The notes under the pieces: model-generated
What the model saw: only the letters and a program-made list of their open reading frames with translations
What the model was told of the DNA's origin: nothing
Databases searched by the model: none
DNA from: Rhodospirillaceae bacterium
GTDB taxonomy: Bacteria; Pseudomonadota; Alphaproteobacteria; CACIAM-22H2
Reading direction: 5' to 3'
Assembly (NCBI GenBank): GCA_022843945.1
Contig: JALHMR010000005.1
Span: forward strand, 1-64,000
DNA length: 64,000 nucleotides
Program-made: the position numbers and the translations under genes
Part shown: positions 5,769 through 63,142 of the stretch, piece after piece
How positions within the stretch are numbered: the stretch's first letter is position 1
How the letters are laid out: each line of letters starts with the position of its first letter

Positions 5769-6680
5769 TCAGCATTTTGCTATAGCCGCTCCAAAGATGT
5801 CGTCGTTGTCGCGGTTGTTGTAGCGGAATTCAAACTCCGCGACGTAGAGCGGCAGATACTTGGCGCTGACCTTGTGGAACGTGCCGACGATGCCGCGCTT
5901 GAGGATGCTCCAGAAGCCCTCAATCGTGTTGGTGTGAACCGCGCCGACAACGTATTCGCCCTTCCGGTGGCGCACGAACTTGTGCGGGTAGATCGTGCCG
6001 AGATCGCGGTAGCCCCAAGCCTCGTCGCTCGCCAGAAGGCTGACCTTCTCGGAAACGGCGCTGCGAACGAACTGGCTGATATGCTCGCCGCGGACGCTCT
6101 CGATAACGCGGGCAACCACGTTGCCCTTGCGCGAGACAGCGCCAGCGACAATCGCCTTGCCGCCGGGGCCGCCCTTACGACCGCTGCGGCCACCATGCTT
6201 GTTGATCGCCTTGCCGCCAACGTAAGTCTCGTCAACCTCGACGATGCCCATAAGCTTCACGAATTCCTTGTCGCGCATCGCGGCCCGGATGCGGTGGCAC
6301 ATATACCAAGCCGTCTTGTAGCTACCGAAGCCCATGTACCGCTTCACCTGAAGGGCGCTGATGCCCTTCTTGCTGGTGACCATGAGGTGAATGACCTTGA
6401 ACCACTCGGTCAGGTCCACGTTCGTGTTCTCAAAGATCGTCCCGACGAGATGAGAGAAGCGATAGGAAGTCTGGTCGGCGCAGTCGTAGCACTGCCAGCG
6501 GAACGGCATGGTCGTGAGTTCGCCAACGTTGACCGATCCGCAGCGGGGGCAATGGACGCCGGTCGGCCAGCGGCGGCAGACGAGGTAGCGGTCGCAAGCC
6601 TCTTCGTTCGGGAAAGCCGCCTTAAACTGGGCGTCCGTCATCTGCTTGATCGGCTTACGTGTTTTCCGGGTCTTGGCCAT
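5769..6680 (-). CDS. IS1595-family transposase
   Basis: 303 residues. It has the family's N-terminal zinc ribbon (Cys44-x2-Cys47, Cys64-x2-Cys67) and helical linker. The catalytic core includes Asp150 (VEVDETYVGG), Asp219 (LASDEAWGY) and a terminal NTIEGFW (Asn251, Glu254) in the place of the third catalytic residue. The basic linker GGRSGRKGGPGGKA follows the first Asp as usual. Length is normal and the frame is intact, so the element may be active. It is transcribed from the right end of the element inward. Confidence 0.95.
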   Translation of the reverse strand: MAKTRKTRKPIKQMTDAQFKAAFPNEEACDRYLVCRRWPTGVHCPRCGSVNVGELTTMPFRWQCYDCADQTSYRFSHLVGTIFENTNVDLTEWFKVIHLMVTSKKGISALQVKRYMGFGSYKTAWYMCHRIRAAMRDKEFVKLMGIVEVDETYVGGKAINKHGGRSGRKGGPGGKAIVAGAVSRKGNVVARVIESVRGEHISQFVRSAVSEKVSLLASDEAWGYRDLGTIYPHKFVRHRKGEYVVGAVHTNTIEGFWSILKRGIVGTFHKVSAKYLPLYVAEFEFRYNNRDNDDIFGAAIAKC

Positions 6681-25895: not shown

Positions 25896-26906
25896 ATGTT
25901 GAGCAAGGATTCTCTTGCCCGCAGAAGTGTTCTGCGTGCCGCGACTGCCACACTAGCTGTCACTCTCGTCAGCCTCGCCGGCGGATCGCCCGCCCTGGCC
26001 CAGATGAAGGCCCCGAAGGGCCCCGTCGAGATCACCACCGGGTCCGGGCCAGGCGGATCCCCAGACGTGATCATGCGCACCGTGATCAAGATCATGACCG
26101 AGCAGAAGATCGTCGACATTCCGGTGGTCATGCAGAACCGCACCGGCGGCTCGCATTCCAACGCCTATAACTATGTCCTGGGCAAGAAGGGTGACGAGAA
26201 CCTGCTCCTCACCCTCGCTTCGCCGGTCTTCACCACGCCGATCATGCAGGGCACGCCATCCGTCATCGACCAGACCGTACCGATCGCCGGCTTCATCCAG
26301 TCCGAGCTGGTGTTCATGGTGCAGCCGAATTCCCCGTTCCGCACGATGAAGGATTTCGTGGAAGCGGCGAAGAAGGATCCGCGCAAGCTGCGCATCGCCG
26401 GCGCGGCGTCGGGCGGCACCGACCACCTGGCGACCGCCATGATCGAGAAGGCCGCCGGCATTCGCCTCACCTATGTGCCCTACGAGAGCGGCTCGGCCGC
26501 CCTGGCCTCGTTCCTCGGCGGGAATGTCGAGGCGACCTTCGGCACGCTCGAGGAAGGCCTGCCGGTCTTCCAGAGCAACAAGTCCCGGCCGCTGGGCATC
26601 CTGTCCGAGAAGCGCCGGCCCGAGGCGTCCTACGCCAACGTGCCGACCCTCAAGGAGCAGGGCTACGACGTGGTGTTCGGCCAGTTCTGGGGCGTCTCCG
26701 CCCCGCCGGGCACCGATCCCGCCATCGCCGCCTGGTGGGAGGACAAGTTCCGCAAGGTCGTGGCCACCAAGACGTGGCAGGACGGGCTCAAGGAGAAGTT
26801 CCAGCGCAGCGATTTCTACGGCGGCGCCGCCGCCGGCGAGTACTTCAAGAAGGAGCAGGCGACCTTCCGCGCCCTGATGGAGGACGTCGGCCTCGCCAAG
26901 AAATAG
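25896..26906 (+). CDS. Tripartite tricarboxylate transporter substrate-binding protein (Bug/TctC family)
   Basis: 336 residues with a Tat-type signal (LARRSVLRAATATLAVTLVSLAGGSPALAQ). The two-domain Bug fold is visible (GSGPGGSPDVIMRTVIKIM; AGAASGGTDHLATAMIEKAAGIRLTYVPYESGSAALASFLGGNVEA). It collects a carboxylated solute for the TctB/TctA membrane proteins encoded directly downstream. The classic 'P-x-x-P-G-G-x-x-D' loop is modified to 'GSGPGGSPDV', suggesting a divergent ligand. Confidence 0.92.
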   Translation: MLSKDSLARRSVLRAATATLAVTLVSLAGGSPALAQMKAPKGPVEITTGSGPGGSPDVIMRTVIKIMTEQKIVDIPVVMQNRTGGSHSNAYNYVLGKKGDENLLLTLASPVFTTPIMQGTPSVIDQTVPIAGFIQSELVFMVQPNSPFRTMKDFVEAAKKDPRKLRIAGAASGGTDHLATAMIEKAAGIRLTYVPYESGSAALASFLGGNVEATFGTLEEGLPVFQSNKSRPLGILSEKRRPEASYANVPTLKEQGYDVVFGQFWGVSAPPGTDPAIAAWWEDKFRKVVATKTWQDGLKEKFQRSDFYGGAAAGEYFKKEQATFRALMEDVGLAKK

Positions 26907-26942
26907 GGCGGTCACGCGGATAGACGGACGAAGGCCGGCAGC

Positions 26943-27395
26943 ATGAGGACAAGCGATGTCGTTTCGGCGTTGCTGATGCTCGTGCTGTCGGCCGCGATCG
27001 TGGTCGATACATGGGGTCTCGAGTTTTACGGCGAGACCACGCCCGGGCCAGCCTTCCTTCCGGTGTGGCTGGCGATTGCCGGTGGCGTCCTGTTCGTCCT
27101 CCGCCTGGCGGAAGCGCGCCGCCTCGCGGCGAGCGCGGCCGTCGAGTGGCCGGACGGCCCCGGACTTCGCCAGGTCGTCATGACCTTCGGCGGACTGGTG
27201 GCGGTTCCGCTTGCCGCGCCGTTCCTGGGCATGATCGTGGCGATGGTCCTGTTCATGGCCTTTCTCCTGCTCGTGGTGCTCCGGCAGCGTCCGGGGCCGA
27301 GCCTGCTGGCCATCACCATAACCGGCGGCCTGGTTTACGCGATCTTCGTGCTGTGGCTCGGTGTCGCCTTGCCGACCGGAATCCTCGGAATCTAG
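26943..27395 (+). CDS. tctB: Tripartite tricarboxylate transporter small membrane subunit TctB
   Basis: 150 residues with four hydrophobic helices and the TctB pattern (SALLMLVLSAAIVVDTWGLEFYGETTPGPAFLPVWLAIAGGVLFVLRL ... GLVYAIFVLWLGVALPTG). It pairs with TctA to form the Na+- or H+-driven importer. It lies between the Bug gene (36-bp gap) and tctA (4-bp gap). Confidence 0.93.
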   Translation: MRTSDVVSALLMLVLSAAIVVDTWGLEFYGETTPGPAFLPVWLAIAGGVLFVLRLAEARRLAASAAVEWPDGPGLRQVVMTFGGLVAVPLAAPFLGMIVAMVLFMAFLLLVVLRQRPGPSLLAITITGGLVYAIFVLWLGVALPTGILGI

Positions 27396-27399
27396 CGCC

Positions 27400-28896
27400 G
27401 TGGATTCCCTCCAGCTTCTCGGGCAGGGCTTCGAGACCTGCTTCACGCCTCTCAACCTGGCTTTCATCCTGATCGGCGTGCTGGTCGGCCAGATCGTCGG
27501 CGCCCTGCCGGGCATCGGGCCAGCGGCTGGCATGGCCCTGCTGCTACCGCTCACCTACGGCATCCCGCCGGTGACGGCCGTCATGATGCTGGCCGGCATC
27601 ATGTATGGCGGCATGTACGGCGGCACGCTGACCTCGGTCCTCGTCAATGTTCCCGGCGAGGCCGCCAGCGTGATGACCGCGGTCGACGGCCATCAGATGG
27701 CCCGCAAGGGCCGGGCCGGCGCCGCGCTGAGCATCGCCGCCATCGGCTCGTTCCTGGCCGGCATCGCGGCGGTCATCGCAGTCGTCTTCGTGACGCCACC
27801 GCTTGCCGCCTTCGCGCTGAAGTTCAACGCCCCCGAATACTTCCTGCTGGCGCTGCTCGGCATCACGGCGACCGCCAGCCTCGGCAGCACCTCGCCCACC
27901 AAGGCCCTCATGGCCGCGCTGCTCGGCCTGATGATCGCCATGGTCGGCGTCGATCCGATCGCCGGCACCCAGCGGCTCACCTTCGGGCAGCTCGGCCTGC
28001 TCGAAGGAATCGACTTCCTGCCGGTCGCCATCGGCATCTTCGGCGTTGCCGAAGTTCTTGCGTCGCTGGAGCGGACGGCGGAGATCCAGCCCATCCGCAC
28101 CCGCCTGCGCGACATGTGGCTGACGACCGAGGAGTGGACGCGGAGCCGCCTGGCGATCGTCCGGGGCGGCCTCGTCGGCTTCTTCATCGGCATCATGCCC
28201 GGTGCCGGCCCGACCATCGCCGCGATGCTCGCCTATGTCGTCGAGCGGCGGTTCAGCCGCCATCCCGAGAGCTTCGGCAAGGGCGCGATCGACGGCGTCG
28301 CGGCCTCCGAATCCGCCAACAACGCGGCCTCTCACGCCGCCTGCATCCCGATGCTGGCGCTCGGCATCCCCGGCTCCGCAAGCACGGCCGTGCTGCTGGC
28401 CGCCCTGATCCTGCACGGCATCCGGCCGGGCGCCATGCTCATGGTCCAGCAACCGCAGCTCGTCTGGGGCCTGATCGCCAGCATGTTCGTCGGCAACGTC
28501 ATCCTGCTGATCCTGAACCTGCCGCTGGCCCCGCTCTTCGCCTCGCTGCTGCGCGTGCGTTACGTCTACCTGGCGCCGGGTATCCTGGTGATCTCCCTGG
28601 TCGGCGCCTACGCCAGCACCCTCGATTTCGGCACGGTATGGACCGCCCTCGCCTTCGGCGCTGTCGGCTGGCTGATGATCAAGCTCGACTTTCCGCGCGC
28701 CCCGCTGGTCCTGGCGCTGGTCCTGGCGCCGCTACTCGAAAGCTCGCTGCGCCAGTCCCTGCTGCTGTCCTTCGGCAGCCTGTCCATCTTCGTCGAGCGT
28801 CCCCTGGCAGCGCTCCTGCTGGGCTGCGTCGTCCTGTCGCTGCTGCTGCCGGTGATCGCCACCATCCGCCGGCGCGCCACGATGAAGTCCGCCTAA
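27400..28896 (+). CDS. tctA: Tripartite tricarboxylate transporter large permease TctA
   Basis: 498 residues from the GTG at 27400. About 11-12 membrane helices and the TctA hallmark segments GALPGIGPAAGMALLLPLTYG (about 28-50), MLAGIMYGGMYGGTLTSVLVNVPGEAASV and PMLALGIPGSASTAVLLAAL are present. It forms the translocation path of the secondary importer with TctB. A longer ORF frame to 27361 overlaps tctB and lacks a ribosome site, so GTG 27400 was preferred. Confidence 0.94.
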   Translation: MDSLQLLGQGFETCFTPLNLAFILIGVLVGQIVGALPGIGPAAGMALLLPLTYGIPPVTAVMMLAGIMYGGMYGGTLTSVLVNVPGEAASVMTAVDGHQMARKGRAGAALSIAAIGSFLAGIAAVIAVVFVTPPLAAFALKFNAPEYFLLALLGITATASLGSTSPTKALMAALLGLMIAMVGVDPIAGTQRLTFGQLGLLEGIDFLPVAIGIFGVAEVLASLERTAEIQPIRTRLRDMWLTTEEWTRSRLAIVRGGLVGFFIGIMPGAGPTIAAMLAYVVERRFSRHPESFGKGAIDGVAASESANNAASHAACIPMLALGIPGSASTAVLLAALILHGIRPGAMLMVQQPQLVWGLIASMFVGNVILLILNLPLAPLFASLLRVRYVYLAPGILVISLVGAYASTLDFGTVWTALAFGAVGWLMIKLDFPRAPLVLALVLAPLLESSLRQSLLLSFGSLSIFVERPLAALLLGCVVLSLLLPVIATIRRRATMKSA

Positions 28897-29062
28897 CCGC
28901 CTGTCCCGACTGGGGGTGCCCGACCGGGCAATTTCGTGGCGGTCAGGCCTCACAAATGCCCAGCCGGCTACCCCGAGTGGTCGAACCGGTTCAGGCGTGG
29001 CCGGTATTAAATACCAGGGCCATGCTTACGTGCCTCAGACCGTCAGCGGGCGAGACCTGCCC

Positions 29063-30121
29063 GTGAAAGCCGCCGAATCCCCGATCCGCGCCAGTGCACC
29101 GGCCGAGGGCACGCACACCTTCGCGCCGAGCTACCTTCTGGCCATGGCCGTCGGCGCGCTCGGCATCATCGTGCTGTTCGCTCTGACTATGGTCTCACTG
29201 GACCGGGCGGGCTACTTACCGCCGCCGCAGATCGCCAACAATCTCTGCGTCGACGAGAAGCTGCGCTTCCTGCGCAACTCGCCGGTCTTCGACTCGCCCA
29301 GCTTCGCACCCGACGTACTGGCGGTCGGCTCGTCGGTGACCTGGCGGACATTGGACGGCGAGGCGGTGGAACGCGCCGCCGCCGGCCGAGCCCGGTTCTT
29401 CAATGGCGGGTTCTGCGCGCTCAAGGTCAACGAGACGGCGTTCACCATGCGCTATTTCCTGGAGCGCTATCCGAGCGTACGCGAGGTGGTGACTATTCTT
29501 GCCCCCCAGGACCTCACCGACTGTCGCACCACGGATGCGCGGGTCTTCGACGCCGCCGACGTTGACGGCTACATCTACGGCGATGCCTGGGTTTTCCCGC
29601 TCTATCTCAAATACTTCGACCCCTTCACCTTCGCCAAGAATGTTTACATCCTGCGCTCGAAAGACCTGTTCCGCTGGAACCGCGGCTTCGACCGCTTCGG
29701 CAGCCTGCCGATGGACACGCGCGAGATCAATCACAAGTTGGTCTACGGCAAGCTCGAGCCCTTCGATCCGGCGTGCTTCGACGCGCTGCGAGCCCTGGCG
29801 AAGGAAGTTCAGGCCGGCGGCCGGCGCCTGATTGTCGCCACTATGCCGATGAACCCCGCCTGGGTTGACCGCTACGACCAGCAGCACCAGCTCCTGCCGC
29901 GGTTCGTGGAGCTCGTGCGCACCGCGCTGACCGGCACCTCGGCAACTCTGTGGGACGCCCACACGGCCCTGTCCCTGCGCCGCGAGGATTTCCTCGACGC
30001 CATCCATATCCGCTGGTCGGCGGCGCAAGACTTCTCGCGCGCCCTGGTCGAGGAAACGCGCCTCGGCCAGTGGGGTATGGGCGAGACCCGTCCCGGCCCC
30101 ACCTCCATCACGCGCAACTAG
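29063..30121 (+). CDS. Membrane-anchored SGNH-like protein, partner of the MBOAT acyltransferase
   Basis: About 352 residues if the GTG at 29063 starts translation; ATG 29143 is an alternative. One membrane helix (about 23-46) precedes a periplasmic domain. This has a block-I-like VGSS (Ser90/Ser91) and a C-terminal D-A-I-H (Asp312, His315), the Ser and Asp-x-x-His arrangement of SGNH hydrolases and AlgJ/AlgX-type acetyltransferases. It is immediately upstream (7 bp) of an MBOAT gene. It may complete acyl transfer onto a surface glycan, or remove acyl groups. The acceptor is unknown. Confidence 0.72.
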   Translation: MKAAESPIRASAPAEGTHTFAPSYLLAMAVGALGIIVLFALTMVSLDRAGYLPPPQIANNLCVDEKLRFLRNSPVFDSPSFAPDVLAVGSSVTWRTLDGEAVERAAAGRARFFNGGFCALKVNETAFTMRYFLERYPSVREVVTILAPQDLTDCRTTDARVFDAADVDGYIYGDAWVFPLYLKYFDPFTFAKNVYILRSKDLFRWNRGFDRFGSLPMDTREINHKLVYGKLEPFDPACFDALRALAKEVQAGGRRLIVATMPMNPAWVDRYDQQHQLLPRFVELVRTALTGTSATLWDAHTALSLRREDFLDAIHIRWSAAQDFSRALVEETRLGQWGMGETRPGPTSITRN

Positions 30122-30128
30122 ACAGCCG

Positions 30129-31754
30129 ATGCTGTTCAACTCGGCCGCCTTCATCGTCTATTTCCTGCCGGTCTGCCTGGCGGGATTCTACGCCCTGGGC
30201 CTGCTGGGCCGGCATCGGCTGGCGCTCACCTGGCTCACGCTCATGTCGTTCGTCTTCTACGGCTGGTGGAACCTGTGGTCGGTGCCGCTGCTCGCCGGCT
30301 CGATCCTCGTCAACTTCCAGCTCGGCCGACTCCTCGCCAGGAACCAGTCGCGCGCGCTGTTCCTCGCCGGCGTCGCCGCCAACGTGGCTCTGCTCGGATT
30401 CTTCAAGTACACGGGCTTCGCCGGCACCACGGTGTCCGGCCTGCTCGGGCTGGACTGGGAGGTGCCGGAGATCGTCCTGCCGCTGGCCATCTCGTTCTTC
30501 ACCTTCCAGCAGATCGCTTTCCTGGCGGATTCCTACGACGGCGTCGCCGAGGAGCCGAAGCTGCTGAACTACAGCCTGTTCATCACCTTCTTCCCGCACC
30601 TGATCGCCGGGCCGATCACCCACCACAAGGAGATGATCCCGCAATTCGACGAGAAGGCGATCTTCAAGCCGCGGGTCGACCTGTTCTCGCTGGGCCTGAC
30701 GGTGTTCCTCGCCGGCCTGTTCAAGAAAGTGGTGATCGCCGACAGCATCGCGCTCTACGCACGCCCCGTCTTCGAGGCGGCGGCAACGGGCGTGGAGCCG
30801 ACCCTGCTCGAGGCCTGGGGCGGAGCGCTGGCCTACGCCATGCAGATGTATTTCGACTTCTCCGGCTATTCGGACATGGCCGTCGGCCTCGGCCTGCTCT
30901 TCGGCATCAGCCTGCCGCTCAACTTCAACTCGCCCTACAAGGCGCCCAGCATCATCGAGTTCTGGCAGCGCTGGCACATGACGCTGACCCGCTTCCTCAC
31001 CGCCTACATCTACAACCCCATCGTGCTGGCGCTGACGCGCCGGCGCATGGCCGCGAAGAAATCGATCCTGCGGACCGGCCGCACCGACCTCGCCGCCTTC
31101 GCCATGCTGGTGGCTGTGCCGACCATCATCACCATGTTCATCTCCGGCTTCTGGCATGGCGCCGGCTGGCAGTACATCGTCTTCGGCCTGCTGCACGGCG
31201 TGTTCCTGACCGTCAATCAGGGCTGGCGCATGCTCAAGGCGCGCTGGGGCTGGAAGGATCCCGGCACGAACTCGCCGCGCCACGCCGCCAGCGTCCTGCT
31301 GACCTTCCTCTGCGCAACCCTGGCGCTGGTCTTCTTCCGCTCGACCGACGTGCCCTCGGCCCTGCGTGTCGTTTCCGGCATGATCGGCGCCAACGGCGTC
31401 GTGCTGCCCTACGACGTGGCGGCCCTGCCCTTCGCCCAGACCATCGTCGAGACCCTCGGCCTCACCCTTGGCGAGATGGACCTGTTCTGGGTCCGCGAGG
31501 TCTTCTGGCTCACCCTGCTCTTCTGGATCGTCTGGTTCATGCCCAATGTCGGGCAGTGGATGCGCCACTACCAGACGGCGCTGGCGCCGAGGATGAAGGC
31601 CATCTGGTACGACCGGCGGGCGCTGGCCGACTCGCCGCTCGCCGCCTGGCACCCGACGGTCGCCTGCGGCCTGATCGTCGGCGCGATCGGCGTCACCGCG
31701 CTGCTGCGCACCTTCTCCAGCGCGCCCACCGAATTCCTCTACTTCCAGTTCTGA
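30129..31754 (+). CDS. MBOAT-family O-acyltransferase (AlgI/DltB-like)
   Basis: 541 residues, polytopic. It has the MBOAT core YFDFSGYSDMAVGLGLLFGI, LPLNFNSPYKAPSIIEFWQRWHMTLTRFL and the catalytic SGFWHGAGWQYIVFGLLHG with His343 and His356. AlgI/DltB-type members pass acyl groups across the inner membrane to a periplasmic acceptor. Here an ACP (33671) and an FkbH-like loader (31767) lie in the same operon, pointing to an ACP-bound donor as in DltB. An SGNH-like partner lies upstream. Confidence 0.95.
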   Translation: MLFNSAAFIVYFLPVCLAGFYALGLLGRHRLALTWLTLMSFVFYGWWNLWSVPLLAGSILVNFQLGRLLARNQSRALFLAGVAANVALLGFFKYTGFAGTTVSGLLGLDWEVPEIVLPLAISFFTFQQIAFLADSYDGVAEEPKLLNYSLFITFFPHLIAGPITHHKEMIPQFDEKAIFKPRVDLFSLGLTVFLAGLFKKVVIADSIALYARPVFEAAATGVEPTLLEAWGGALAYAMQMYFDFSGYSDMAVGLGLLFGISLPLNFNSPYKAPSIIEFWQRWHMTLTRFLTAYIYNPIVLALTRRRMAAKKSILRTGRTDLAAFAMLVAVPTIITMFISGFWHGAGWQYIVFGLLHGVFLTVNQGWRMLKARWGWKDPGTNSPRHAASVLLTFLCATLALVFFRSTDVPSALRVVSGMIGANGVVLPYDVAALPFAQTIVETLGLTLGEMDLFWVREVFWLTLLFWIVWFMPNVGQWMRHYQTALAPRMKAIWYDRRALADSPLAAWHPTVACGLIVGAIGVTALLRTFSSAPTEFLYFQF

Positions 31755-31766
31755 CGGGAGGGGGAA

Positions 31767-33674
31767 ATGATCGAGCTCGATTGGCTGCCGCGCCATCCCG
31801 GTCTTGCCGCCGCGATCACGGCGGCGCGCACGCTGCCAACGGCGGCCGAACGGCTCGACGCCGCCATCCGGCTCAGCGGATTCGGCCGCGACGCGCTGGC
31901 CACCACGCGCCTGGACAGGCTGGCGCAGGAGGCGCTAGCCGAGACGCCGCCGCCCGCCGGCTGGCAGCGGCGTCGCCTCGCCGTGCTCGGCTCCTCCACG
32001 CTCGAGACCGTCATCCCAGCCCTGCGCGTAGCGGCGCTCGAGCGCCGACTGGTGCTCGAGGTCACCGCGGCGCCGTACGGCCAGGTGCGGCAAGCGATCC
32101 TCGGTCCCGCATCGCCGCTCGCTGACGCCAAACCCGATTTCATCCTGCTGGCGATGGATGAGGGCGCCGTGCTGCCCCCTCTGCCGCTCGCCGCCAATCA
32201 GGAAGAGGCCGACGCCGCGGTCGAGGCGGAGCTCAACGGGCTGGTCACGCTGTGGCGCGCCGCGCGCCAGCGCTTCGGCGCCACGGTCATTCAGCAGACG
32301 ATCCTCAATACCCGCCTGCCGCTCTTCGGCAGCTACGAGGCGGCCGTTCCGGCCGCGCCCGCCGCCCTGGTCGAGCGCCTCAACCGGCGGATGGCGCAGA
32401 GCGCCGCAACGGAGGGCGTGCTGCTGGTCGATCTCGACGGCGCCGCCGCCGGCTCCGGGCGCGCCCACTGGCACGATCCCGTGCGCTGGCACCAGGCGAA
32501 GCAGGTGCTGTCACCGGCCGCGATCCCGCTTTACGGCGACCTCGCCGCCCGGGTCATCGCGGCGGCTTGCGGCCTGTCGCGCAAATGCCTGGTGCTCGAT
32601 CTCGACAACACGCTGTGGGGCGGCGTGGTCGGCGACGACGGCATCGAGGGCATCGTACTCGGCCAGGGCAGCGCCGTCGGCGAAGCCTATCTCGCCGTCC
32701 AGCGCTATGCCGCTTCGCTGGCCGAGCGCGGCGTGGTGCTGGCGCTATGCTCGAAGAACGACGCCGAGATCGTCGAGCGGGTGTTCAAGAGCCATCCCGA
32801 GATGCACCTGAAGCGAGACGCGATCGCCGCCGCCGCGGTCAACTGGGCGGACAAGGCGACGAACCTCCGGTGTCTTGCCAAGACCCTGGACCTCGGCCTC
32901 GACTCCTTCGTCTTCGTCGACGACAACCCGGCCGAACGCGACATCGTGCGCCGCGAGCTGCCCATGGTCGCGGTGCCGGAGCTGCCCGACGACGTCGCGC
33001 ATTACGCCGCGACGCTTGCCGCCGCCGGCTACTTCGAATCCGTCGCCTTCACCGCCGAGGACAGCACCCGTTCCCGGCAGTACACGCAGAACGCCCAACG
33101 CAAGGAGCTGCTGGCGACTGCGACCGACATGGAGGGCTTCCTCAAGAGCCTCGACATGCAGCTTGACGCCCGTCCGCCGGCCAACGGCGATCTCGCGCGC
33201 CTCACCCAGCTGATCAACAAGTCCAACCAGTTCAACCTGACCACGCGGCGCTACACGGCCGAGGAAGTGGAGCGCGCGGTCAACGACCCCGAGGTCGTGG
33301 TCCGCGGTTTCCGCCTGGTCGACAAGTTCGGCGATAACGGCCTGATCGCGGTGATCATCGCCCGGCCCCACGAGCAGGAGCGCGCGGCGTTGGTCGTCGA
33401 CACCTGGCTGATGAGCTGCCGGGTTCTGGGCCGCGGCGTCGAGGCCGCCTGCCTGTGCGTCCTGGCGCATGAGGCGGCACGGCGCGGCGCCAAGGCGCTG
33501 ATCGGCGAATACCGGCCCACGCCCCGCAACGGCATGGTCCGCGACCACTATCCGCGCCTGGGCTTTACGCCGGCCGGCCCCTCTGCCGGAAAGGGGGGCG
33601 GCGAGGCCTCCTACTGGCGGCTCGATCTGCAGCACTTCACCGAGCCTGAATGCCACATAAGGATCAGCGAATGA
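31767..33674 (+). CDS. FkbH-like HAD-IIIC family protein
   Basis: 635 residues. An N-terminal SGNH-like domain (about 70-260; VLGSSTLETVIPALRV ... LPLFGSYEA) precedes a HAD-IIIC catalytic core with LVLDLDNTLWGG (about 276-287), LCSKND and FVFVDDNPAERDIV. A C-terminal GNAT-like domain lies at about 480-610. FkbH proteins load phosphoglycerate-derived glyceryl groups, or a related hydroxyacid, onto an ACP. The matching ACP gene overlaps by 4 bp. The N-terminal extension is typical of the long FkbH-like proteins found in surface-polymer loci. Confidence 0.9.
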   Translation: MIELDWLPRHPGLAAAITAARTLPTAAERLDAAIRLSGFGRDALATTRLDRLAQEALAETPPPAGWQRRRLAVLGSSTLETVIPALRVAALERRLVLEVTAAPYGQVRQAILGPASPLADAKPDFILLAMDEGAVLPPLPLAANQEEADAAVEAELNGLVTLWRAARQRFGATVIQQTILNTRLPLFGSYEAAVPAAPAALVERLNRRMAQSAATEGVLLVDLDGAAAGSGRAHWHDPVRWHQAKQVLSPAAIPLYGDLAARVIAAACGLSRKCLVLDLDNTLWGGVVGDDGIEGIVLGQGSAVGEAYLAVQRYAASLAERGVVLALCSKNDAEIVERVFKSHPEMHLKRDAIAAAAVNWADKATNLRCLAKTLDLGLDSFVFVDDNPAERDIVRRELPMVAVPELPDDVAHYAATLAAAGYFESVAFTAEDSTRSRQYTQNAQRKELLATATDMEGFLKSLDMQLDARPPANGDLARLTQLINKSNQFNLTTRRYTAEEVERAVNDPEVVVRGFRLVDKFGDNGLIAVIIARPHEQERAALVVDTWLMSCRVLGRGVEAACLCVLAHEAARRGAKALIGEYRPTPRNGMVRDHYPRLGFTPAGPSAGKGGGEASYWRLDLQHFTEPECHIRISE

Positions 33675-33925
33675 CGACCACCGCGCACGACCAGATTCTC
33701 GCCGAGCTGCAGGAGATCTGCCGCGAGGTCTTCGAGAACCCGGAGCTGACCATCAGCGAAAGCACGACCGCCGAGGACGTGCCCCACTGGGACAGCCTGA
33801 ACCACCTCAACGTCGTCGCCGCAGCCGAGCAGCGCTTCGGTATCCGCTTCCGCACCAGCGAGGTCGAGGGTCTCAAGAACGTCGGCGATTTCGTCGGCCT
33901 GGTTGCCGCCAAGCGCCAGCACTGA
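33671..33925 (+). CDS. Acyl carrier protein
   Basis: 84 residues from the ATG that overlaps the FkbH stop (ATGA). The phosphopantetheine site is in HWDSLNHLNVV, with Ser42. The N-terminal helix and a final helix GLKNVGDFVGLVAAK match stand-alone ACPs of FkbH loci. A 4'-phosphopantetheinyl transferase is needed in trans. It is the last gene of the operon 29063-33925; the GC-rich hairpin CCGCCCC...GGGCGGGG lies just downstream without a U-run. Confidence 0.93.
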   Translation: MTTTAHDQILAELQEICREVFENPELTISESTTAEDVPHWDSLNHLNVVAAAEQRFGIRFRTSEVEGLKNVGDFVGLVAAKRQH

Positions 33926-58627: not shown

Positions 58628-58633
58628 GTGCTA

Positions 58634-58672
58634 TTGACAATGCTAGAACGCTCAAGCATACTGTTCAGTATG
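58634..58672 (+). promoter_or_regulatory. Transposase promoter with overlapping palindrome
   Basis: TTGACA (58634-58639), 17-bp spacer, CATACT (58657-58662). CATACTG-TT-CAGTATG (58657-58672) is a perfect palindrome that covers the -10 box and the transposase start codon. Expected transcription start is at or next to the ATG at 58670. Confidence 0.65.
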
Positions 58673-59491
58673 AACAGGCTGGACATACAGAAGCGCGCCC
58701 AGATCATCGGCCTCCTGGTCGAGGGCAATAGCCTCCGCGCCGCTTCCCGTTTGGCCGACGTTTCGATCAACACGGTAACGAAGCTTCTCGTGGACGTGGG
58801 CATGGCCGCGATGTCCTACCAGGACGAGCACCTGCGGAACCTGCCTTGCAAGCGCATCCAGGTTGACGAGATTTGGGCCTTCGTCGGCGCGAAGCAGGCC
58901 AACGCCAGCCCCGAACAGAAGGCGCAAGGCTGGGGCGATATCTGGACGTGGACTGCGATCTGCGCCGATACGAAGATCATTCCGTGCTGGCTCGTTGGCC
59001 CGCGCAACCTAGAGGCCGCCAAGTATTTCCTTGAGGATCTATCGCTGCGGCTTAAGGACCGCGTGCAGCTTACGTCCGATGGCTGGGGCGGCTACAAGCA
59101 GGCGGTTGACCGCGCGTTCGGCGAAGAGATTGACTACGCGCAGCTCGTGAAGGTTTACGCGAGCGTGGTTACCGGAGGCCCGTCGCGCTACAGCCCGCCC
59201 CCTTGCGTCGGCGCTGAGAAGCACGCGGTTATCGGCCGGCCGGTGAAGCGCGATGTTTCTACGTCCTACATTGAGCGCAGCAACCTCACCATGCGGATGA
59301 ACATGCGGCGCTTTACCCGTCTAACCAACGCCTTCTCAAAGAAGGTCGAGAACCACGCTCACGCCGTGTCGCTTCACTTCATGTATTACAACTTCGGCCG
59401 TATCCATAAGTCGCTGCGCGTTACCCCGGCCATGGCAGCCGGCGTTGCGGATCACGTTTGGTCGCTGGAAGAGATCGCGGCCTTGGCTTAG
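58670..59491 (+). CDS. IS1-family-like DDE transposase
   Basis: 273 residues from ATG 58670; no ribosome site precedes it and the mRNA is probably leaderless. The N-terminal HTH (about 5-42: QIIGLLVEGNSLRAASRLADVSINTVTKLL) is followed by the catalytic core with Asp66 (RIQVDEIWAF), Asp137 (QLTSDGWGGY) and Glu202 (VSTSYIERSNLTMRMNMRRFTRLTNAFSKK). The single-frame form is usual for this IS1-like group, in contrast to the frameshifted E. coli IS1. The frame is intact. It lies in the centre of the 3.3-kb element. Confidence 0.93.
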   Translation: MNRLDIQKRAQIIGLLVEGNSLRAASRLADVSINTVTKLLVDVGMAAMSYQDEHLRNLPCKRIQVDEIWAFVGAKQANASPEQKAQGWGDIWTWTAICADTKIIPCWLVGPRNLEAAKYFLEDLSLRLKDRVQLTSDGWGGYKQAVDRAFGEEIDYAQLVKVYASVVTGGPSRYSPPPCVGAEKHAVIGRPVKRDVSTSYIERSNLTMRMNMRRFTRLTNAFSKKVENHAHAVSLHFMYYNFGRIHKSLRVTPAMAAGVADHVWSLEEIAALA

Positions 59492-60751: not shown

Positions 60752-63142
60752 ATGCGCCCCATCGCTGCCGTCTCCCAGCAGATCTGGGACATGAAATACC
60801 GCCTGAAGAGCGAGGGGGGGACTCCGGTCGATCAGACGATCGGAGACACCTGGGCGCGTATCGCCGGGGCGCTGGCCGCTTCGGAGAGCGATACCGCGAC
60901 CTGGTCCGGGCGTTTTGCGACAGCCCTGGAAGACTTCAAGTTCCTGCCCGCCGGCCGCATTGTCGCGGGTGCCGGCACCGGGCGCAGCGTCACGCTGTTC
61001 AACTGCTTCGTCATGGGCACGGTGCCCGACGACATGGCGGGGATCTTCACGCACCTGAAGGAAGCCGCGCTGACCATGCAGCAGGGCGGCGGCATCGGTT
61101 ACGACTTCTCCACCCTGCGGCCCAAGGGCGCGCGGGTGAAGGGCGTGGGCGCCGACGCCTCGGGGCCGCTGACCTTCATGGATGTCTGGGACGCCATGTG
61201 CAAGACCATCATGAGCGCCGGCCACCGCCGCGGCGCCATGATGGCGACGATGATCTGCGATCATCCGGACATCGAGGCCTTCATCGAGGCCAAGCGCGAG
61301 CCCGGGCGCCTGCGCATGTTCAACCTCTCCGTCCTCATCACCGACGCCTTCATGCAGGCGGTGAAGGAAGACGCGCCCTGGGAGCTCAAGTTCGGCGGCA
61401 CCAGCTACAAGACGGTGCGCGCCCGCGAGCTGTGGGACCGCATCATGCGCTCGACCTACGGCTTCGCCGAGCCCGGCGTGATCTTCATCGACCGCATCAA
61501 CCGGCGGAACAACCTGCACTACGCCGAGACGATCCGGGCCACCAACCCGTGCGGCGAACAGCCGCTGCCGCCCTACGGCGCCTGCCTGCTCGGCTCGATC
61601 AACCTCGCCGCCCTGGTCAAGGACCCGTTCACCGAATCAGCCCATCTCGACGAGGCCGAGTTCGACCGCCTTGTGCCGCTCGCGGTGCGCATGATGGACA
61701 ATGCCATCGACGTCTCGCGCTTCCCCCTGCCCGAGCAGCAGGCCGAAGCGAAAGCAAAACGTCGCATCGGGCTGGGCGTCACCGGTCTGGCCGACGCGCT
61801 GATCTTCTGCGGCACGCGCTACGGCAGCGAGAAGGCCGTGCAGCTCACCGAGACATGGATGCGCCGGCTGCAGCGCCAGGCCTATCTCGCCTCGATCGAG
61901 ATCGCCAAGGAGAAGGGCGCCTTCCCGCTCTTCGACGCCGGGCCGTTCCTGGCCAGCGAAACGGTCGCCGCCCTCGACAAGGACGTGAAGGACGGCATCG
62001 CCCGGCACGGCATCCGCAACGCGCTGCTGACCTCGATCGCGCCGACCGGCACGATCTCGCTGCTCGCCGACAACGTCTCCTCGGGCCTCGAGCCAGTGTT
62101 CAGCTTCGCCTATACCCGCAACATCCTGATGCCCGACGGCACGCGCCGCACCGAAGAGGTCAGCGACTACGCCTACCGCACCTTCCGCCGGATGTTCGGC
62201 GACCAGGCGGAGATACCCGACTACTTCGTCGACGCCCAGCGCCTGTCGCCCGGCGACCACGTGGTCATGCAGGCCGCCTGCCAGAAATACGTCGACGCCT
62301 CTATTTCCAAGACCATCAATTGCCCCGAGGACATCTCCTTCGAGGCCTTCAAGGACGTCTACCTGCAGGCCTACGAGCTGGGCTGCAAGGGCTGCACGAC
62401 GTATCGCCCCAACGACATCACCGGCTCGGTGCTGGCGGTCAAGGAAGAGGCCAAGCGCGCCGCCAAGCCGGTGCAGACCGCCCTGCCCTTCAACAAGCCG
62501 GCGGTGCGGCCGGCAGACCCGTTCGAGGCGGGGGGCGTGGTCTACATGACCCAGCCGCTCGACCGGCCCGAAGCGCTCCCGGGGCGCACCTACAAGGTGA
62601 AATGGCCGGACAGCGAGCACGCCATCTACATCACGCTCAACGACGTGATCATGGACGGGCGGCGCCGGCCCTTCGAGGTCTTCATCAACTCCAAGAACAT
62701 GGAGCACTACGCCTGGACCGTGGCGCTGACGCGCATGATCTCGGCCGTGTTCCGGCGCGGCGGCGACGTATCGTTCGTGGTCGACGAGCTCAAGGCCGTG
62801 TTCGATCCGCGCGGCGGCCAGTGGATGGGCGGGCGCTACGTGCCCTCCCTCCTTGCCGCCATCGGCGAGGTGATCGAGCGCCACATGATCGATATCGGCT
62901 TCCTCACCGCCCCCGGGCGGCCGCATGCCGACCCTTACGCCGCCGGGCCGCTGGTGGCGGTGGCCGGCGGCACGGACGAGCCGCGGCCGGATATCCAGGC
63001 GATGCCCTCTTCCGGCGGCAGCACGACCGGCGGCCGGGTCTCGGCCTTCATGCGCCAGTGCCCGAAATGCGGCAGCGCCTCGCTGATCCGCCAGGAAGGC
63101 TGCGACAACTGCACGAGCTGCGATTACAGCAAGTGCGCGTGA
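60752..63142 (+). CDS. nrdJ: Adenosylcobalamin-dependent (class II) ribonucleotide reductase
   Basis: 796 residues. It reduces ribonucleotides to deoxyribonucleotides with a B12 radical. N-terminal FLPAGRIVAGAGTGRSVTLFNCFVMG, the catalytic NPCGEQPLPPYGACLLGSINLAALV and PTGTISLLADNVSSGLEPVFSFAYTRN are typical of the NrdJ/VdaA group. Cys residues CQKYVDASISKTINCPED and a C-terminal zinc-ribbon (CPKCGS ... CDNCTSCDYSKC) complete it. No AdoCbl riboswitch is visible upstream. A CTATATAT core at about 60652-60659 resembles half of an NrdR box. Confidence 0.97.
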   Translation: MRPIAAVSQQIWDMKYRLKSEGGTPVDQTIGDTWARIAGALAASESDTATWSGRFATALEDFKFLPAGRIVAGAGTGRSVTLFNCFVMGTVPDDMAGIFTHLKEAALTMQQGGGIGYDFSTLRPKGARVKGVGADASGPLTFMDVWDAMCKTIMSAGHRRGAMMATMICDHPDIEAFIEAKREPGRLRMFNLSVLITDAFMQAVKEDAPWELKFGGTSYKTVRARELWDRIMRSTYGFAEPGVIFIDRINRRNNLHYAETIRATNPCGEQPLPPYGACLLGSINLAALVKDPFTESAHLDEAEFDRLVPLAVRMMDNAIDVSRFPLPEQQAEAKAKRRIGLGVTGLADALIFCGTRYGSEKAVQLTETWMRRLQRQAYLASIEIAKEKGAFPLFDAGPFLASETVAALDKDVKDGIARHGIRNALLTSIAPTGTISLLADNVSSGLEPVFSFAYTRNILMPDGTRRTEEVSDYAYRTFRRMFGDQAEIPDYFVDAQRLSPGDHVVMQAACQKYVDASISKTINCPEDISFEAFKDVYLQAYELGCKGCTTYRPNDITGSVLAVKEEAKRAAKPVQTALPFNKPAVRPADPFEAGGVVYMTQPLDRPEALPGRTYKVKWPDSEHAIYITLNDVIMDGRRRPFEVFINSKNMEHYAWTVALTRMISAVFRRGGDVSFVVDELKAVFDPRGGQWMGGRYVPSLLAAIGEVIERHMIDIGFLTAPGRPHADPYAAGPLVAVAGGTDEPRPDIQAMPSSGGSTTGGRVSAFMRQCPKCGSASLIRQEGCDNCTSCDYSKCA

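Follow-up and report, generated by a model that had tools for sequence, protein, structure and literature searches.

A four-gene SGNH/MBOAT/FkbH/acyl carrier protein operon that probably encodes a Dlt-like transmembrane acylation system

We analysed a stretch of 64,000 nucleotides from a Rhodospirillaceae bacterium (GenBank assembly GCA_022843945.1, contig JALHMR010000005.1, positions 1 to 64,000; hereafter the window), in which genes for an SGNH-like protein, an MBOAT acyltransferase, an FkbH-type protein and an acyl carrier protein (ACP) span positions 29063-33925. We consider it probable that the four genes make up a complete and self-sufficient system for acylation across the membrane, similar to Dlt in its working but loaded by FkbH rather than DltA, and that this system transfers glyceryl to an envelope acceptor. 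A first-pass annotation had proposed a stand-alone Dlt-like machine with an unusual, FkbH-derived donor. This proposal is supported by an acyl-shuttle motif (FLYFQF) at the end of the MBOAT, by shuttle-like microproteins and AMP-ligase-ACP sister loci in other genomes, and by the DltD-like fold of the SGNH protein.

The four genes and their products

All four genes lie on the + strand, as do the codons and segments given below. Gene 1 (29063..30121) is followed after 7 bp by the MBOAT gene (gene 2; 30129..31754), which is followed after 12 bp by the FkbH gene (gene 3; 31767..33674); the latter overlaps the ACP gene (gene 4; 33671..33925) by 4 bp (ATGA). Open reading frames (ORFs) and sequence thus agree with the tight arrangement first described. 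Gene 1 has two candidate start codons, the GTG at 29063 and another GTG farther upstream, at 28916, so that its start is uncertain. Scans of the locus for promoters and terminators gave no informative signal.

Gene 1 is assigned from a fold model and conserved residues as a putative membrane-anchored SGNH-like acyltransferase in a DltD/PatB-like position. It matched no Pfam or NCBIfam family, PDB sequences searched with the profile of its relatives yielded nothing, and comparison of these relatives with the SGNH-like proteins of other neighbours gave a weak result. A full-length AlphaFold model (predicted local distance difference test score, pLDDT, 52) had no meaningful structural match, a problem that was resolved by trimming to residues 54-336. 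The trimmed model, built with seven Stutzerimonas/Pseudomonas relatives, reached a mean pLDDT of 66 and a predicted template-modelling score (pTM) of 0.72, with a well-predicted core. Its top Foldseek match in the PDB was DltD of Streptococcus pneumoniae (3bma; E=2e-5), PatB was also among the matches, and comparison with SGNH esterases gave structural Z scores of up to 17 (VIA). In 16 relatives, Asp312 (codon 29996-29998) and His315 (30005-30007) were invariant and Gly89 and Ser91 (29333-29335) nearly so. The features of the DltD type, namely the SGNH fold, an N-terminal transmembrane (TM) helix (about 29132-29206) and the conserved Ser, Asp and His, are all present in gene 1. Sequence profiles alone were insufficient; because the fold model matches and Asp312, His315 and Ser91 are conserved, the modelling indicates that the SGNH label originally given to gene 1 is right.

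The gene 2 product, an MBOAT of the DltB/PatA/AlgI type, matched PF03062 (E=6e-23), and its nearest solved structures are those of DltB (E=2e-31). Residues W342 and H343 (codon of His343, 31155-31157) were invariant across 46 MBOATs. The protein ends in EFLYFQF, an exact match to the FxYxxF acyl-shuttle motif as defined in PMC12148441 (FLYFQF hexapeptide, 31734..31751; Tyr538, 31740-31742). In the Dlt pathway, DltB passes D-alanine from DltC to the FxYxxF tyrosine of the microprotein DltX, from which it goes on to DltD; in PatA the motif is the C-terminus of the MBOAT itself, borne by two extra TM helices (PMC12148441).

Gene 3 encodes an FkbH-type HAD-IIIC protein (TIGR01686, 302.6 bits, cut-off 146.65; PF21211 also matched) with an SGNH-like N-terminal domain, an HAD domain and a C-terminal acyltransferase region. 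A solved relative is BF1531 (3slr; E=2.5e-59). Across 69 FkbH sequences, D278/D280/T282, D385/D386 and S329 of the HAD motifs as well as C551 (33417-33419) were invariant, and K363 was conserved in 99%. The ACP scored just above the cut-off of PF00550 (21.5 versus 20.8 bits) and far under the cut-offs of housekeeping AcpP models; its phosphopantetheine site is Ser42 in WDSL (33794-33796). FkbH replaces adenylation domains in nonribosomal peptide synthetases (NRPSs) and loads glycerate from 1,3-bisphosphoglycerate, and by family membership the FkbH of the operon is expected to load glyceryl from the same substrate onto the ACP (PMC8949500, PMC7489565).

The four proteins could then act in sequence. 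FkbH would take the three-carbon unit from 1,3-bisphosphoglycerate, strip the phosphate and load D-glyceryl on the phosphopantetheine of the ACP, as other members of its family suggest. At the membrane, the MBOAT would accept the acyl group from the ACP by means of His343 and pass it to Tyr538 of its own FLYFQF tail, a step modelled on PatA and DltX. The acyl-tyrosine tail would offer the group to the membrane-anchored gene 1 protein (Ser91/Asp312/His315), which would take it on Ser91 and esterify a hydroxyl of an envelope acceptor outside the membrane, the acceptor being made elsewhere in the genome.

Recurrence, acyl shuttles and loaders in other genomes

With gene 1 as query, genome contigs yielded seven Pseudomonas/Stutzerimonas loci. 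Three hold the full set in the order MBOAT-FkbH-ACP-SGNH, and four hold MBOAT, ACP and SGNH together with an FkbH-sized gap. FkbH seemed at first to be absent from these four; in the one that was read directly (L007), the gap is a masked run of N and not an exchange of the gene. An intact four-gene set is also present in genome G421 (locus L100). The genes flanking the Stutzerimonas sets are unlike those of the window. The first-pass annotation had proposed a survey for co-occurrence of the four genes and would have taken their absence from other genomes as evidence against it; all four recur together in Stutzerimonas, and their clustering is therefore no chance event.

FkbH was searched in 385 genomes of the class and 398 of the phylum, and 57 FkbH loci were read with their neighbours; this sample is uneven, as it includes prematurely ending contigs and related genomes. 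An ACP-like ORF accompanied FkbH at 51 of the 57 loci, and an MBOAT lay within the stretch read at 30 of them, all from Pseudomonadota. The MBOAT density in 30 of the sampled genomes (~64 genes in ~134 Mb, about 0.48 per Mb) predicts by chance an MBOAT within 16 kb at about 0.4 of the 57 loci. Most FkbH-linked MBOATs (24/30) end in the shuttle motif F/Y/W-x-Y-x-x-F/Y/W. On an MBOAT tree that included unlinked MBOATs, the FkbH-linked label required seven changes, at least four of them forced by well-supported branches, so that the link has been gained or lost several times. The window MBOAT falls in a clade of nine members, all FkbH-linked. By a strict motif rule, which overlooks divergent partners, SGNH-like proteins were enriched at MBOAT-positive loci (13/29) versus MBOAT-negative ones (2/27).

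At a Sinorhizobium meliloti locus, a gene annotated as 'TonB-dependent receptor' (L078:7394-8623) sits between MBOAT and ACP-FkbH. Judged by its position and size it looks like the SGNH partner, and the annotation is probably wrong; a literature search on the locus names gave no result. FkbH-ACP pairs with no adjoining MBOAT were seen at L101:6816-8941 and L102:1894-4235, in a genus in which the FkbH protein was matched in 50 of 111 genomes.

Some FkbH-linked MBOATs are only about 400-440 amino acids (aa) long and have no C-terminal tail. We looked for small ORFs that combine a single hydrophobic segment with a tyrosine motif at the C-terminus. Of the six FkbH loci whose MBOAT is tail-less (L086, L091, L096, L119, L138 and L262), five have an ORF for a distinct 36-50 aa protein with one TM segment that ends in FxYxxF or xVYxxF. 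The microprotein of L086 (...FFVYQNF; ends 10857, - strand) is encoded between MBOAT and SGNH, that of L096 (...PFIYQGF; ends 4556, -) adjoins SGNH, that of L091 (...NFEYRVF; ends 4543, +) precedes two SGNH-like ORFs, and that of L119 (...SLVYREF; ends 9154, +) lies between ACP and MBOAT; the fifth is at L262 (...DLVYKIF; ends 7700, -). The strict FxYxxF motif is present in three of the five (L086, L091 and L096), the only free-standing short TM ORFs with this motif in 1.38 Mb; the relaxed motif that covers L119 and L262 was chosen after L262 and L116 had been seen. The other matches in 72 loci (0.98 Mb) were the tail of a truncated MBOAT (L113), a 27-aa ORF (L097), the only such ORF at loci without a short MBOAT, and microproteins beside short MBOATs without FkbH (L263 and L265).

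Tail-less MBOATs also led to three Pseudomonadota loci (L264:4620-8440, L269:7167-11201 and L272:4177-7888) that encode, in this order, an AMP-binding protein with an ACP-like C-terminal region as in a DltA-DltC pair, a 269-298 aa protein in the putative SGNH position and a short MBOAT. Neither FkbH nor a DltX-like microprotein was found at these loci. They resemble Dlt systems in which DltA and DltC are fused. Since such sister loci carry an AMP-ligase-ACP fusion in place of FkbH, either loader, FkbH or AMP-ligase, can go with the membrane chassis, which makes the loader a swappable part.

These observations bear on the explanation that the operon combines two functions, in which MBOAT and SGNH O-acetylate an envelope polymer from acetyl-CoA and the glyceryl-ACP of FkbH and ACP serves something else. 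SGNH-MBOAT pairs without FkbH do exist, and known Gram-negative MBOAT-SGNH systems draw on acyl-CoA (PMC12148441). However, the association of FkbH-ACP with MBOAT is repeated on the tree and in differing gene orders, the sister loci carry AMP-ligase-ACP loaders, and the operon holds no other consumer of glyceryl-ACP. We regard a division into two functions as improbable.

Several findings nevertheless weigh against a single glyceryl transfer system. At 27 of the 57 FkbH loci no MBOAT lies within reach, which indicates that FkbH-ACP has other uses. A gene-1-like SGNH and MBOAT pair occurs without FkbH or ACP in Skermanella and at L123, and carrier-free pairs are held to use acyl-CoA (PMC12148441). 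That work describes no system in which the MBOAT has a built-in tail and a carrier protein is also used, and no microprotein was found beside the tail-less MBOAT of L138. Pfam scans at 21.6 to 43.5 kb found no acceptor gene near the operon. Finally, the window MBOAT scores 191 bits to the DltB model TIGR04091 (equivalog cut-off 375) and FkbH-unlinked MBOATs score alike, so that an ACP donor leaves no sequence signature in these scores; a closer kinship of DltB with the FkbH-linked MBOATs was considered and dropped because the scores of linked and unlinked proteins overlap. As this profile cannot separate the two groups, it is genomic linkage alone that points to the use of an ACP donor by the MBOAT.

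Acyl group, acceptor and neighbourhood

Recurrent additional genes at FkbH-MBOAT loci encode a MaoC dehydratase, an SDR or MaoC-SDR fusion, an S-adenosylmethionine (SAM) methyltransferase and a glyoxalase-fold (VOC) protein. Because MaoC, SDR or methyltransferase genes are present at many sister loci, the three-carbon (C3) unit is probably altered there. By general chemistry, MaoC and SDR could convert glyceryl to lactyl. The lactyl unit of bryostatin is said to be made by such a route, although our literature search retrieved no paper on it.

The chassis of the operon might accordingly be as we describe and its acyl group not plain glyceryl, with phosphoglyceryl, lactyl or another small hydroxyacyl derived from the product of FkbH by enzymes encoded elsewhere. 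This would fit the tailoring genes of the sister loci and the other fates of FkbH products, such as methoxymalonyl-ACP (PMC7489565). In the window clade, however, none of the nine members has tailoring genes among its recurrent neighbours, and the operon itself is without a dehydrogenase or dehydratase gene; we consider a different acyl group unlikely. Since tailoring genes do not recur in this clade, plain glyceryl is the simplest prediction for it.

More tentatively, and with the odds somewhat against the claim as a whole, the loci may form a Dlt-like family of Pseudomonadota in which the loader is swapped between FkbH and AMP-ligase, the C3 acyl group is modified while still on the carrier, ahead of export, and an acyl-tyrosine shuttle is used throughout. 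Under this joint claim the group would be plain glyceryl in the window clade, O-methylglyceryl where a methyltransferase is encoded and lactyl where MaoC and SDR are, and the shuttle would be either fused to the MBOAT or a free DltX-like microprotein.

The Pfam scans of the neighbours at 21.6 to 43.5 kb detected transporters, hydrolases and a DNA glycosylase, and neither a glycan-synthesis gene nor an AMP-binding gene. This bears out the earlier remark that the cluster is without any polymer-synthesis gene, and no polymer gene is linked to the four-gene set in Stutzerimonas either. Given this absence in both cases, the acceptor is most likely a polymer that the cell makes with genes located elsewhere in its genome. 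The same absence would also suit a lipid head group, a secreted metabolite or a membrane protein as acceptor, and MBOAT and FkbH domains occur in metabolite pathways as well, for example that of the aeruginosins (PMC10143770). Characterised bacterial MBOAT-SGNH pairs with an FxYxxF tail, on the other hand, modify envelope polymers (PMC12148441), and the fold of gene 1 is nearest to those of DltD and PatB, which makes a non-polymer acceptor rather unlikely in our view.

Immediately upstream of gene 1 lies a TctC-TctB-TctA transporter set (25896-28896). Such a set also lies immediately downstream of the SGNH-MBOAT pair of Skermanella rosea (L080:11600-14633) and did not recur beside SGNH/MBOAT in the remaining loci compared. 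Farther away, transposase genes of the IS1595 type and the IS1 type (5769-6680 and 58628-59491) are found near GC dips of the window, the latter followed by a ribonucleotide reductase gene (60752-63142). A Barstar-like gene (1813-2094) is preceded by a gene for a small, possibly exported protein, and the two (1107-2094) could be a ribonuclease-inhibitor pair.

Relation to known systems

We found no published description of the SGNH/MBOAT/FkbH/ACP set in a search that excluded subscription journals and preprints, in line with the initial statement that no characterised example of this exact set is known. Of the papers found on FkbH together with MBOAT, SGNH, DltX or an acyl shuttle, the only ones to contain both FkbH and MBOAT deal with cyanobacterial peptides and are unrelated. 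If our interpretation is correct, the operon is a case, outside the Dlt pathway, of an MBOAT-SGNH system that depends on a carrier protein, and it gives FkbH chemistry a new outlet in envelope modification rather than antibiotic synthesis. In the account of PMC12148441, a carrier protein belongs to Dlt and the other MBOAT-SGNH systems draw on acyl-CoA, a rule that the operon would widen. A bacterial exopolysaccharide that carries glycerate is gellan gum of Sphingomonas, with an L-glycerate ester (PMC9104527); the literature searched named neither its glyceryl transferase nor its donor. The operon is a concrete gene set to consider for glycerate esters on such exopolysaccharides, and a family with swappable loaders, if real, could explain how the donor for esters like that of gellan is provided.

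The FkbH-ACP part resembles the glyceryl loading modules of FK520, tetronate and vioprolide synthesis in its HAD motifs, invariant Cys and partner ACP. It differs from them in that the operon is without a polyketide or NRPS gene, and the predicted outlet is a membrane acyltransferase. The membrane part is like PatA/PatB (peptidoglycan O-acetylation) and AlgI/AlgJ/AlgX (alginate), which also combine an MBOAT with a C-terminal FxYxxF and a membrane-anchored or periplasmic SGNH protein. Those systems use acyl-CoA and no carrier protein (PMC12148441), whereas the operon has its own carrier and loader and is therefore not a plain PatAB/AlgIJ system.

With Dlt (DltA, DltB, DltC, DltD and DltX; D-alanylation of teichoic acids) the operon shares a carrier protein, an MBOAT, an SGNH transferase and the FxYxxF shuttle tyrosine; the fold of gene 1 is nearest to DltD and, among solved structures, the MBOAT is nearest to DltB. 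It differs in that FkbH takes over as loader from DltA, an adenylation enzyme, the MBOAT carries the shuttle peptide as its own tail where Dlt has the separate microprotein DltX, the host belongs to the Pseudomonadota and the acyl group is predicted to be glyceryl. As DltA is absent, the operon falls outside the Dlt family in its defined form; it would work like both Dlt and PatAB/AlgIJ.

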